This document shows, piece after piece, positions 13,281-17,129 of a DNA stretch of 38,334 bases (the stretch's first letter is position 1; each line of letters starts with the position of its first letter). Source of the DNA: Candidatus Uhrbacteria bacterium (GTDB taxonomy: Bacteria; Patescibacteriota; Patescibacteriia; UBA9934; GWF2-40-263); NCBI GenBank assembly GCA_016235605.1, contig JACRJW010000034.1:1-38334 (forward strand), written 5' to 3'. The translations under genes were made by a program, and so were the position numbers. Below the pieces are notes generated by a model that saw only the letters and a list, made by a program, of their open reading frames with translations, ran no database searches and was not told the DNA's origin.

Positions 13281-13440
13281 CGAAGCTCTAAGAGTGGACG
13301 CATTCGTGATTGTCCGAGGTAAGTGCTATTTTGTTGCTCCTTTTTCACATCTGTATTTTCTTCTCAGTCTCTTTGTTCCTTATTATCCAAGCCAGATGAT
13401 CAGGACAAGTGGCATACTGGTGACAATCATAGCAAATCGC

Positions 13441-13469
13441 TTGACAAAAACCCAATTTTTCTGTATTGT
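13441..13469 (+). promoter_or_regulatory. Promoter of the DGR target gene
   Basis: TTGACA (13441-13446), 17-bp spacer, TATTGT (13464-13469). Predicted start is near 13476, giving a leader of about 84 nt ending in the ribosome site ACAGGAGAAG before ATG 13560. Confidence 0.78.
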
Positions 13470-13559
13470 TGGTTCGTTCCAATCTAAGCATCCGGCTTGG
13501 AATTTGGGGCAAGACGTGCCTCTGCGCTCCGGCGCGACATAGGCACAACAGGAGAAGTC

Positions 13560-14297
13560 ATGGAAGCCATGATCGAGTTGGCGCTCCGGCGCCAGGCTGA
13601 AGAAGCACTGGCCCACGCTCTCGCGAACCCGGCGAAGTCCGAGATCGCGCGCGTCGCGTACCAGATGGTGATCAACGGCCAGACCGAGGCCGAGGTGCGC
13701 GCGTCGAAGGTGCACACGCCCAAGGTCGACCTCGCCGAGGAACGCCGCGTCGCTCTGGAGGCGAATTTCCGCAAGCGCGGGTTTGAGATCTCGGTTCCCA
13801 AGCCGAGCGTCTCCAACACCACGCTCAAGCGGTGGCGTCGCGAGGGACGAGAGTTGTTCTACCGTCCTGCGACCGCCCTCATGAGCTACGCCGCGTGGAT
13901 GTCCGCCCACGGCCAGGCCAAGCACTGGACTGTGGTCAACGAGAGCGACCGCGCGAAGGTCGGTTGGGAAGACGGAAAGGCGGGCTACTGGTTCACGACG
14001 CAGATCGTCCCTGCCTGCCCCCAGCTCAACACGAGCTGGAACGACCTCACCGCCTCGACGAAGCTCCTCTGCCTCGAGGAGTATGTGATCGTCTACTGGA
14101 CACACCACGACCTCACGGGTATCTGCATCGACGTCAGTACCTGGTGCTGGCTCCGTACGCGCTTCGGTCGGTGCGCCCTCAATGCCATCGTCACTGACGG
14201 TGAGGTGGGGGTCTCTAGGGACGATCCCGACAGCCTCTCGGTCCCGTATGCTTACGAAGGTGGCCGCGCCGTGGAAGTGGTCAAGAATGCTGCTTGA
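13560..14297 (+). CDS. DGR target (variable) protein
   Basis: 245 aa from ATG 13560 (ribosome site AGGAG 6 nt upstream; the frame is open to 13497 but without a ribosome site). Residues 1-95 are helical and basic. From about 97 the text ELFYRPATALMSYA, HWTVVNESDRAKVGW, KAGYWF, TSWNDLTASTKLLCLEEYVI, DVSTWCWLRTRFG looks like a ligand-binding scaffold of the kind found ahead of VRs in CPR DGR targets, probably C-type-lectin-like. Residues 200-242 are encoded by the VR, and the protein ends 3 residues later. No signal peptide or membrane span, so it is probably cytoplasmic. GC-rich codons differ from the flanking transketolase genes. Confidence 0.85.
   Translation: MEAMIELALRRQAEEALAHALANPAKSEIARVAYQMVINGQTEAEVRASKVHTPKVDLAEERRVALEANFRKRGFEISVPKPSVSNTTLKRWRREGRELFYRPATALMSYAAWMSAHGQAKHWTVVNESDRAKVGWEDGKAGYWFTTQIVPACPQLNTSWNDLTASTKLLCLEEYVIVYWTHHDLTGICIDVSTWCWLRTRFGRCALNAIVTDGEVGVSRDDPDSLSVPYAYEGGRAVEVVKNAA
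14157..14284 (+). repeat. DGR variable repeat (VR)
   Basis: 128 bp at the 3' end of the target gene, aligned without gaps to the TR 469 bp downstream. There are 17 mismatches, 12 at TR adenines (32 adenines in the TR). Changed residues include Arg204, Cys205, Ile210, Val211, Thr212, Gly217, Ser219, Asp221, Ser225, Ala231 and Tyr232. The 3' part, GGTGGCCGCGCCGTGGAAG, is GC-rich and identical, as expected for the initiation-of-mutagenic-homology region, followed by a TG/CC difference. Confidence 0.92.
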
Positions 14298-14349
14298 ACC
14301 TTGACCCCCTGCCCTGCTCTTGCTACCAACCGGTACTAGAGTAGGGCTA

Positions 14350-14377
14350 TTAATTTTGCTTTGAATTTTGCTACAAT
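14350..14377 (+). promoter_or_regulatory. Promoter of the template-repeat RNA
   Basis: TTAATT (14350-14355), 16-bp spacer, and extended -10 TGCTACAAT (TACAAT at 14372-14377). It lies between the target stop and the TR, so the TR RNA would start near 14384. The stretch from the target stop to here has only a weak TACC/GGTA hairpin (about 14322-14333). Confidence 0.6.
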
Positions 14378-14625
14378 CATTTTGGTGAAGGTTCGTAGAC
14401 TGACAAGCAGAAACTTGTCGGTTACCAACATCCTACTGTCACCCACGAGCATCCGGTTCAAAATGACCGGAGAAGTCGGTTACGGTGAGTAAACAGTTGA
14501 ACCACTTCGTGCCGTTTCTAAGATGGATCGCCACTGGGTCTGTCCGTCCGAATACATTTCCGGATCCCGGAATTCAGGAGGTGACCCACGGGTTCCCTCT
14601 GGTGAGTAAGGAAGGAAGCGGCGCA

Positions 14626-14753
14626 ACGCGCTTCGGTCAGAGCGCCCTCAATGCCAACGACAACGACGGTGAGGTGAGGGTCAACAGGAACGATCCCGAC
14701 AACCTCTCGGTCCCGTATGACAACGAAGGTGGCCGCGCCGTGGAAGCCGTCAA
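14626..14753 (+). repeat. DGR template repeat (TR)
   Basis: 128 bp matching the VR. AAC and GAC codons sit at the positions that vary (read in the VR frame: NANDND, VNRNDPDN, YDNEGG), the classical adenine-rich design that lets adenine mutagenesis reach many amino acids without stop codons. Flanks do not match the VR flanks. Confidence 0.92.
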
Positions 14754-14756
14754 CTG

Positions 14757-15131
14757 TTAAGACACGAGACCCAACCGGCCTCGTGTCTTCTTTCGCCAGC
14801 CTCCAAGCATACGTCCAATTTCCATGAGCTGGTTTTCCCGGTAGATGTAACCCTCACGTTTATAAATTCCTAGGTCATACGTGAGACGTACGAGGATTTT
14901 CACAAGGTCGAGTGTTCGTTGCAGTCGGTCGAGTAGGACGAGACGTTCAGGGATCGGTAGAGAATTTGCTTCCCAGATTCCTTCGATGAGTTGAAGTGTA
15001 CGCATTTTTAATGTTTCACCAACGGCGTGCCGTTCTGTTTTTGGAAACCTGATGACGTCAGTGTGCAGAAGCTTGTACCATTCATACAATTTATGAACCA
15101 ATCCGAATTCTTCACCGGGAAACCCAGTCAA
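14757..15131 (-). CDS. avd: Accessory variability determinant (Avd) of the DGR, inverted
   Basis: 124 aa as read from TTG 15131. Four-helix-bundle family: FGLVHKLYEWYKLLHTDVIRF then PKTERHAVGETL (helix 1-2), LLDRLQRTLDLVKILVRLTYD (helix 3) and the hallmark end LMEIGRMLGGWRK. Avd binds the RT and TR RNA and is essential for cDNA synthesis in studied DGRs. It lies on the opposite strand to target, TR and RT, unlike most DGRs. The start is doubtful: the frame stays open to 15185 through the G-run, the only ATG nearby (15133-15135) is one base out of frame, and TTG is the fallback. Confidence 0.82.
   Translation of the reverse strand: MTGFPGEEFGLVHKLYEWYKLLHTDVIRFPKTERHAVGETLKMRTLQLIEGIWEANSLPIPERLVLLDRLQRTLDLVKILVRLTYDLGIYKREGYIYRENQLMEIGRMLGGWRKKTRGRLGLVS
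14759..14789. terminator. Hairpin between TR and avd
   Basis: AAGACACGAG ... CTCGTGTCTT, a 10-bp perfect stem around an 11-nt loop. It begins at the stop codons shared by the TR frame (+) and avd (-), and overlaps the last avd codons. It probably stops the convergent TR and avd transcripts; the T-run is short (TTCTTT). Confidence 0.6.
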
Positions 15132-15150
15132 CCATCGATCGAATTCGGTC

Positions 15151-15161
15151 GGGGGGGGGGG
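15151..15161 (+). repeat. Run of 11 G at the avd/RT junction
   Basis: Eleven consecutive G in the very short space between the 5' ends of avd (-) and the RT gene (+), next to ATCGATCGAATTC. It is either a phase-variable tract or an assembly/sequencing artefact (two-colour poly-G). Both genes lose a normal start here. Confidence 0.9.
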
Positions 15162-15208
15162 TACTTCAAAGGCATACCTTATTTAAGGATGTCATTGCGC
15201 TAGAAAAT

Positions 15209-16210
15209 TTGTTTGAAGCTTGGGAGGTATTCCATCGTGGGAAAATGGCCAAACAAGATGTCCTGGATTTCTCCATGAGGCTTGAGGACGAATTATTTGA
15301 CCTAGCGCACGACCTTGGAAACGGATCGTACCATCATGGCTGGTATGAGCGATTTTACATTCACGACCCCAAGCGCAGGTATATAAGCAAAGCAAGTGTG
15401 CGGGATCGAGTCTTACACCAAGCGCTTGTTGGCGTGGTGGAACCGATGTTTGATCCAACCTTCATTTTCGATTCGTTTTCTTCTCGTAAAGGGAAGGGGA
15501 CACATGCGGCGATTGACCGTCTTGAAGATTTTTTAAGACGCGGATCTCGCAATGGCTCGAACACGATTTATGCGCTCAAATGCGATGTATCGAAATTTTT
15601 CGATTCGATACAGCATGATGTGCTTATGGGGATGCTCAGACGGCGTATCATCGACGAACCGTTGCTAGGACTTGTAGGGCAGGTCGTTACAAGTCACACG
15701 TCTCATCAAGGAACGTCGTGCGGGCTTCCACTTGGGAATGTCACAAGCCAACTTTTTGCGAACATCTATCTCAATGGATTCGACCATTGGGTGAAGGAGC
15801 ACCTGAGGGTACGATGGTACATTCGGTTTTGTGATGATTTCATTTTGCTTCACGAGAGTCGTCAGTTCTTGGAATCAGCCATTGTGCAAATTGACTCGTA
15901 TCTATCGCAACATCTCCATCTACAGCTTCATCCGTATAAAGTTTCTCTTCGGACATATCAGCAAGGCATCGATTTTCTTGGTTGGGTGTTGAGGCCAAGT
16001 GTACGTACGATGCGAACGAAAACGTGCAGGCGCCTATCTCACCGTGTGGATGGTCTGGTGTCACAGTATAGAGAAACAGGAACCCTACAAGAGCGTTTCA
16101 GTGAGACCGTCCAGTCTTGTTTAGCGGCCTTTGATCACGGTCAGGGATTTAGGAATCAGGAGCGACTCATTCATTCAGTAAGACAGATGAAGTTTAAGAA
16201 TCTTCAATAG
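15209..16210 (+). CDS. DGR reverse transcriptase
   Basis: 333 aa from TTG 15209. Matches DGR RTs: IHDPKRRYISKASVRDRVLH (51-70), FIFDSFSSRKGKGTHAA (85-101), KCDVSKFFDSIQHD with catalytic Asp126, the DGR hallmark GLPLGNVTSQ (172-181; SQ replaces SP of other RTs), YIRFCDDF with catalytic Asp209/Asp210, and GIDFLGW (253-259). It copies TR RNA into mutagenised cDNA. Conserved N-terminal sequence continues upstream in frame (QRHTLFKDVIALENLFEAW, from about 15167) up to the G-run, with no ATG or GTG. The true start is probably just at or beyond the G-run and is lost or altered. The stop is 1 bp from the convergent DUF4349 gene. Confidence 0.93.
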   Translation: MFEAWEVFHRGKMAKQDVLDFSMRLEDELFDLAHDLGNGSYHHGWYERFYIHDPKRRYISKASVRDRVLHQALVGVVEPMFDPTFIFDSFSSRKGKGTHAAIDRLEDFLRRGSRNGSNTIYALKCDVSKFFDSIQHDVLMGMLRRRIIDEPLLGLVGQVVTSHTSHQGTSCGLPLGNVTSQLFANIYLNGFDHWVKEHLRVRWYIRFCDDFILLHESRQFLESAIVQIDSYLSQHLHLQLHPYKVSLRTYQQGIDFLGWVLRPSVRTMRTKTCRRLSHRVDGLVSQYRETGTLQERFSETVQSCLAAFDHGQGFRNQERLIHSVRQMKFKNLQ

Positions 16211-16211
16211 G

Positions 16212-17129
16212 TTACTTTTTTCGTAATCGAGCCACGCCTTTCCAGATAATCCAGACAATAAATGCAAGTGGCACACCAATCCCTACACCCACGATCACGA
16301 TCCAGATGATTGCTTCTACCAACCACTGCGCCAAGCTCACCACCGCCTGCGCGGCTTGCTTTACGGTCGTTCCAGGGCGGAAGACTTTGCCGCCGACTTT
16401 GATGACTGGCTCCTCATCGAGGTTCACGGTGATCGTCGAGAAGTCAGTTTGCGAATCGAGGTACTGGATCTGGCCGGTGAGCGATTCGATGTTGCCGCGG
16501 ACGGTCGTGAGCGCATTTTCGATCTGGAGGATTTCCTCTACGGTTGTGGCAGAACCCAAGATTTCTCTATAGCGCACTTCTTGCGCTTGGGCATTTTTGA
16601 GTCGAGCGGACAGATCAATGTACTGTTCAGTGACGTCTTGCGTTCCGACAAACTCTTCTTCCACGACGAGCGCTTCAGATTTCAAGGCTTCAACACTGCT
16701 ATCAAACTGATCGGCTGGGACGCGGATAATCACGTATCCTGACAGCGTGCCGTCTTCATGTTCAGACACGGATGAGGACTGGACGTAGCCGCCTTTTTCC
16801 TCAGCGAGCGATTTCACAGCGGCGGAACTCTCCTCGACATCCAAGACGATGAGCGAGAGGTCGCCGGTCTTGATGATCTTCTGGTCTATTTCGGCGGCGA
16901 GAGCGTCGTCACGTAAGAGCTCACCTCCTGGCATGATAGCTTTTTCACCGTAGTCGCCTACAAAAGACGTCGATGAGTCTGTCACGGCCTGTTCGTAGAA
17001 TTCAGGAGACGAAGTTGTATAGATCGGACGCACTCCCGTGAAGTATTGCGCCACCGACCAGACCAAAGCGACGACGCCGACGATGGCCAGGACACGTGTG
17101 ATCCATGGCAGAGATTTTTGGATGGACAT
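16212..17129 (-). CDS. DUF4349 domain membrane protein
   Basis: 305 aa. N-terminal membrane helix (about 12-30, VLAIVGVVALVWSVAQYF), extracytoplasmic region with the DUF4349 pattern: IIKTGDLSLIVLDVEESSAAV, GGYVQSSS, VIIRVPADQF, then a coiled-coil-like stretch (about 170-240) with YIDLSARLKNAQAQEVRYRE, and a C-terminal membrane helix (about 268-296) ending in a basic tail. Function unknown; the fold suggests envelope assembly or sensing. It starts 3 bp after the transketolase N-terminal gene, so they share a transcript although the functions look unrelated. Confidence 0.87.
   Translation of the reverse strand: MSIQKSLPWITRVLAIVGVVALVWSVAQYFTGVRPIYTTSSPEFYEQAVTDSSTSFVGDYGEKAIMPGGELLRDDALAAEIDQKIIKTGDLSLIVLDVEESSAAVKSLAEEKGGYVQSSSVSEHEDGTLSGYVIIRVPADQFDSSVEALKSEALVVEEEFVGTQDVTEQYIDLSARLKNAQAQEVRYREILGSATTVEEILQIENALTTVRGNIESLTGQIQYLDSQTDFSTITVNLDEEPVIKVGGKVFRPGTTVKQAAQAVVSLAQWLVEAIIWIVIVGVGIGVPLAFIVWIIWKGVARLRKK

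Follow-up and report, generated by a model that had tools for sequence, protein, structure and literature searches.

Antisense avd, a structured leader RNA and a candidate phase-variation tract in the DGRs of Patescibacteria

The DGR in the window, by which we mean the whole 38,334-nucleotide stretch of Candidatus Uhrbacteria DNA analysed here, raises the question of why such an element should carry its avd gene on the strand opposite to that of TR and RT. The earlier note, in which this arrangement was pointed out, read it as a sign either that Avd and the TR RNA are controlled separately or that there has been a local inversion, possibly one created by misassembly. Open reading frames and profile matches confirmed the arrangement itself, with avd on the minus strand between a TR and an RT that both lie on the plus strand.

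The window is contig C8 of a draft assembly of 1.2 Mb in 111 contigs with 8% contamination. Its DGR target gene (13560..14297, plus strand) is an open frame of 245 codons from the ATG at 13560, for which a Pfam search returned no confident family, and it holds the VR (14157..14284, plus strand) in its last third. The VR is 87% identical to the TR with which it is paired (14626-14753, plus strand), and 12 of the 15 differences in the TR/VR core fall on TR adenines, the adenine bias of a DGR with its VR inside a coding gene. A hairpin 3' of the VR, read from the sequence (14311..14348, plus strand; GCCCT..AGGGC, loop AACC), is a candidate target-site hairpin, a candidate terminator of the target transcript, or both. 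The avd gene (14757..15175, minus strand) has its body frame at 14757-15164 and its start codon at 15175-15173; near 15185, where the start had been placed before, there is no in-frame start codon. Its product scored 42.4 bits against Pfam bAvd (cut-off 40), above the threshold for an Avd accessory protein, and 58 bits against NCBIfam DivGenRetAVD, under the cut-off of 80 for that family. The RT (15093..16210, plus strand) has its body at 15164-16210 and its ATG at 15093; the body matched RVT_1 with an E-value of 1.4e-23 and keeps the motifs GLPLGNVTSQ and FCDDF intact, as in a DGR-type RT. In both genes start and body are parted by a poly-G tract of 11 bases (G11; 15151..15161, plus strand) that lies within the head-to-head overlap of avd and RT. 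Viral contigs scanned with the RT contained no relatives. In the light of the comparisons below we consider it probable that the locus is a complete DGR with the standard layout of Patescibacteria, comprising a VR target, a free-standing TR RNA gene and a head-to-head avd/RT pair that would be phase-variable.

The orientation of avd proved to be general. Two further DGRs of the source genome, on contigs C36 and C30, have avd immediately upstream of RT and on the other strand, and when 144 relatives in the class were searched for RT and Avd all 91 RT-avd pairs found were on opposite strands. The same was true of 40 of 40 loci in other classes of the phylum and of 79 of 79 named GTDB loci (Uhrbacteria, Moranbacteria, Peribacteria, Saccharibacteria, Daviesbacteria and others). 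After removal of duplicates, and with the three loci of the source genome included, there were 206 distinct DGR loci of Patescibacteria, and avd was opposite RT in every one; the placement of avd on the strand of TR and RT seen in Bordetella phage BPP-1 occurred in none. Three loci seemed to depart from the rule that avd lies upstream of RT, two through hits that overlap by 6-9 nt and one through a distant pair (in genome G117), and all three are still opposite-strand. Outside the phylum avd was on the RT strand in the phage DGRs checked (6 annotated and 2 found by HMM) and in 7 annotated plasmid DGRs from cyanobacteria, Chlorobi and Proteobacteria. Since avd is opposite RT throughout the phylum and on the same strand outside it, this comparison of gene orders makes the antisense avd a phylum-wide trait and no accident. 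Misassembly or a recent local inversion of avd, to which the fragmented and contaminated state of the draft assembly might have lent some credit, is ruled out for all practical purposes by the identical arrangement in the other two DGRs of the genome and in all the distinct loci, which come from independent assemblies. The comparison of gene order in related genomes, which the earlier note had put forward as a check, thus found avd antisense everywhere, and the proposal of an inversion local to this locus did not hold.

Several observations on the spread of these elements were made in the same survey. The DGR cassettes of loci L040 and L047 are 88.9% identical although their genomes belong to two different families, within one taxonomic order, which suggests horizontal transfer of the element. 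On a contig labelled Chlamydiae (L214) there is a DGR of the usual Patescibacteria type, together with the leader RNA described below, probably through mis-binning or transfer.

Given that the orientation is conserved, it was of interest to see what else is conserved around it. Neither the structured RNA 5' of TR nor the poly-G tract in the avd/RT overlap had been remarked on in the earlier note, and together they suggest a reason for the orientation of avd.

The RNA was recognized in the spacer between VR and TR, for which statistics were drawn from the 71 loci where a TR/VR pair could be detected automatically. The two repeats are 188-556 nt apart (median 344), and the spacer presents, in order, a hairpin with a T-rich stretch, an extended -10 box, and a structured leader that ends at TR. 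In the window the predicted extended -10 promoter of the TR RNA is at 14369..14377 (plus strand; TGC TACAAT), and fits the consensus TTTTG.TATAaT of the aligned spacers. The strict motif TGnTAnnnT was present in 37 of the 71 loci, as against 7% in shuffles. A generic sigma-70 scan did not pick the box at 14369..14377, and a generic promoter and terminator scan of this region of the window performed at chance level and was uninformative.

The leader itself (14384..14625, plus strand) is about 240 nt long, with an outer stem formed by 14509-14519 and 14614-14624. In its general architecture a 12-bp stem that directly follows the motif ACTnS encloses two inner helices adjoining TR. An alignment of 29 leaders showed strong covariation, with changes on both sides in 20 of 21 pairs, paired cells at 86.6% (58.7% when shuffled, 36-48% in slid controls), and a covariation score of 0.806 (0.28 shuffled, 0.14-0.23 for slid versions). 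The stems in this alignment were chosen as the best for each sequence, and a covariance model is therefore the fairer test. Our model, R1, matched 35 of 40 and 59 of 74 loci (94 of 114 in all), nearly all of them outside model building, with one match per locus at the expected position, and it matched 0 of 12 phage DGRs. When R1 was run against the whole window, whose own leader is divergent, there was no match at E<=1; in an unfiltered search restricted to the region the top hit was at 14501-14629 with 17.2 bits. On folding, the leader of the window formed the same closing stem, with a z of -2.9 for the whole leader. Rfam returned nothing at or above gathering score over 13400-16300, which places the leader outside the listed Rfam families.

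At the other end of TR, the 10-bp hairpin that had been reported where TR and avd meet tail-to-tail was indeed present (14759..14789, plus strand; AAGACACGAG / CTCGTGTCTT), at the avd stop and shared by the 3' ends of the TR RNA and avd. Across the 71 loci the distance from the end of TR to the avd stop was -5 to 74 nt (median 19), and a strong hairpin lay 3' of TR in 59, as against 4% of shuffles, with a T-rich tail in 42. In many loci this hairpin reads CTCTCC...GGAGAG-TTTTGTTTT and is encoded in the last avd codons. It probably terminates the TR RNA and, where it is symmetric, avd as well.

These observations suggest that a conserved RNA gene occupies the VR-TR spacer and that the TR RNA is a transcription unit of its own, with promoter, leader, TR and terminator. 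With avd read from the other side, the proposal that Avd and the TR RNA are under separate control is supported. In BPP-1, avd precedes TR on the same strand and an RNA scaffold occupies the spacer after TR (PMC12875486); both the Avd- and RT-binding RNA and the adenosine used for priming are downstream of TR (PMC12875486). Given how little room there is downstream of TR in the present loci, where BPP-1 has its scaffold and priming adenosine, the leader upstream of TR is the likely RNA scaffold for the Avd-RT complex. It could be argued instead that a scaffold like that of BPP-1 persists downstream, encoded antisense to avd. In place of a structured spacer after TR, however, there is a terminator-like hairpin, which in most loci would come before any such scaffold, and the covarying structure was found upstream; we consider a downstream scaffold highly improbable.

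We now turn to the tract. As assembled, neither avd nor RT of the window can be read from an ATG: an 11-base C run on the minus strand separates the ATG of avd from a body that is one base out of register with it, and on the plus strand the same G11 separates the ATG of RT from a body likewise one base out. Adding one base (G12) or removing two (G9) puts both genes in frame, with a head-to-head overlap of 83 bp. The source genome contains only five sites with G>=9, and three of these are its three DGR avd/RT junctions; of the other two, one lies in a ComM-like frame at the end of contig C38 and one on a GC-rich contig with the look of contamination. Contig C38 starts in poly-C, poly-G on the other strand (positions 1-13; L130:1-264), and continues as the C-terminal frame of a ComM/YifB-like protein; this run is possibly a further slippage tract, in a gene related to DNA uptake, as well as an assembly break. 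In the third DGR of the genome (L116, on contig C30) avd is in frame with G9, and RT is split by a frameshift near its NLTSQ motif at a point where no repeat tract was seen, so that either a degraded copy or an assembly error may be involved.

Poly-G of 7 to 13 bases was present at the junction in 114 of the 206 distinct loci, the G11 of the window included; it was found inside RT in 11 more loci and near the 3' end of avd in three, and within the cassette the G was always on the RT strand. The background was 19 G/C runs in about 900 kb outside the cassettes. The RT-internal tracts coincide, in several genomes, with a split of RT into two frames; six loci (L110, L111, L113, L115, L117 and L127) have G9 to G12 inside RT some 540-750 nt past the 5' end of avd, and in these RT falls into two frames close to the tract. 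The three loci with poly-G near the avd 3' end are L119, L173 (labelled Peribacteraceae) and L202 (labelled Peregrinibacteria). Where poly-G is absent, loci often carry arrays of (GA), (CT) or (GT) of up to 23 units, or of longer units of four bases, such as (ATTG)7 and (GGAT)11, or five, such as (CCTGT)10, located at the junction, in mid-RT or at the RT 3' end. Four loci (L197, L206, L219 and L243) have 4-base arrays of 8-11 units near the RT 3' end, and arrays in that place would alter or truncate the C-terminus of RT rather than switch RT off.

Phase variation classically works through poly-G and through arrays of 2-, 4- and 5-base units. In a tree built from 200 RT sequences, 155 loci had a tract, with units of 1, 2, 4 or 5 bases, and 45 had no detected tract; no tract had units of 3 or 6 bases, and the kind or place of the tract changed at least 18 times. 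Judged by these positions, tract placement varies between DGR lineages. The 155 loci have what is expected of a contingency locus, a repeat whose unit is not a multiple of three in or next to the 5' coding region.

A contingency locus should also yield a full frame from a start codon in one register. For the 114 loci with junction poly-G we asked whether tract lengths of n-1, n or n+1 open the avd frame back to an ATG within 60 nt. At least one register gave an avd ATG in 112 of the 114 (41.9 expected with the upstream bases shuffled), and exactly one did so in 92 (36.6 expected). In 64 loci the RT start also lies before the tract, and in 62 of these a single register restores both genes; since the sequences are related, this counts as a conserved design, in part inherited, and not as 62 independent events. 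In the other 50 of the 114 RT can start at an ATG of its own beyond the tract, and only avd would switch. As assembled, 33 of the 114 loci are ON, with the proviso that assembled tract lengths, the G11 of the window included, could be off by a base. Among the loci with a single working register 20 of 92 are ON as assembled, which is rarer than one in three, as if the DGRs were mostly off in nature. The junction tract thus looks like a signature of phase variation, for which a general background exists (PMC2831843), and we treat it as a candidate phase-variation tract.

Homopolymers are prone to error and a few contigs end at such a tract, and one might suppose that the N-terminus of Avd is in reality fixed, in frame and proline-rich, and that the tract lengths are errors of assembly. 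At other loci, though, di-, tetra- and pentanucleotide arrays stand in for poly-G, and the long arrays of 2-, 4- and 5-base units cannot be put down to assembly error. Moreover, frame-preserving 3-mers never occur, and the point at which internal tracts split RT is the same in several genomes. Assembly error is on these grounds a very unlikely explanation. Most pairs of cassettes with high identity turned out to be the same contig in two collections, which left one informative pair for the comparison of tract lengths: L138 and L223, of which L223 is from a Saccharibacterium, are 92.7% identical over 1375 bp, and their sole indel is in a CT array of 23.5 units in one and 14.5 in the other.

The boldest reading, to which we give a probability of roughly 0.6, is that throughout the phylum a single tract stochastically switches avd and RT together, and that the RNA scaffold of the TR RNA has moved to a position before TR, with priming unlike that of BPP-1. 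In the explanation of the locus that we regard as probable, the leader would take over from the downstream scaffold of BPP-1 in holding the Avd-RT complex; nothing beyond a terminator would then be needed after TR, and avd would for that reason be free to abut TR tail-to-tail. The length of the poly-G tract would shift by slippage, one register in three would allow both avd and RT to be translated from their ATGs, the other two would turn both off, and hypermutation would come in stochastic bouts in few cells. The assembled G11 of the window would be an OFF register for both genes, and G12 or G9 would be ON. On the boldest reading, with the scaffold before TR, the synthesis of cDNA would have to be primed otherwise than in BPP-1, perhaps by the 3' terminal hairpin of the TR RNA folding back onto TR.

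The closeness of the 3' ends of TR and avd, within a median of 19 nt, also allows the proposal that the avd transcript, whose sequence is complementary to the region flanking the TR RNA on the 3' side, regulates the TR RNA or primes its reverse transcription. The terminator-like hairpin, however, should halt both transcripts before they overlap by much, and the TR RNA's own 3' hairpin could equally well be the primer; we regard a role for the avd transcript as unlikely. A further alternative, also improbable, dispenses with a genetic switch, and holds that transcriptional or ribosomal slippage keeps a steady share of Avd and RT in frame at any tract length. Two thirds of the loci are out of frame as assembled, and this would be tolerable under such slippage. 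On the other hand, arrays of 2-, 4- and 5-base units of up to about 49 nt occupy the same places as poly-G, and such arrays are typical of DNA slippage and less so of transcriptional slippage; tract length also differs in the one informative pair of close relatives.

Patescibacteria are rich in DGRs, and almost none of these bacteria can be cultivated. If the switch is real, hypermutation in them is a heritable state, random and reversible; this would account for a cell's ability to explore protein space and afterwards hold on to a successful variant, and both the timing of DGR activity and the fraction of active cells become testable in existing metagenome reads. The model of the 5' leader offers a sequence-based handle for finding these elements, and the leader predicts an RNA-protein architecture and a priming site different from those of BPP-1, the only DGR studied in depth. 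In a literature search on phase variation or homopolymers in connection with DGRs or with Patescibacteria we found no paper that makes the link. The inverted avd by itself has possibly been noted already; what we rate as new is the leader RNA together with the slippage tract.

Among known DGRs, the closest relatives are presumably those of clade 2 of Roux et al. 2021 (PMC8144416), a Patescibacteria-only clade of cellular DGRs to whose lineage this locus would belong; the main text of that paper makes no mention of avd, its orientation, phase variation or homopolymers. The 'inverted' DGRs of the 2012 DiGReF survey, in which RT is opposite to TR and VR (PMC3521204), resemble the present ones in having components spread over two strands and in tolerating separate transcription, but here only avd is opposite. 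With the DGR of BPP-1 (mtd-avd-TR-brt) the locus shares an adenine-biased VR/TR pair, an Avd of the bAvd family, a DGR-type RT and an upstream target; it differs in having avd antisense after TR, structured RNA before TR, and a slippage tract across the starts of avd and RT. In that last respect it is like the contingency loci of Neisseria, Campylobacter and Helicobacter, with poly-G/C or arrays of 2-, 4- or 5-base units near the 5' end of the coding region and the frame set by tract length. The genes switched in known contingency loci are mostly surface or modification genes, whereas the candidates for switching here are an enzyme of targeted hypermutation and its partner, encoded in a head-to-head overlap.
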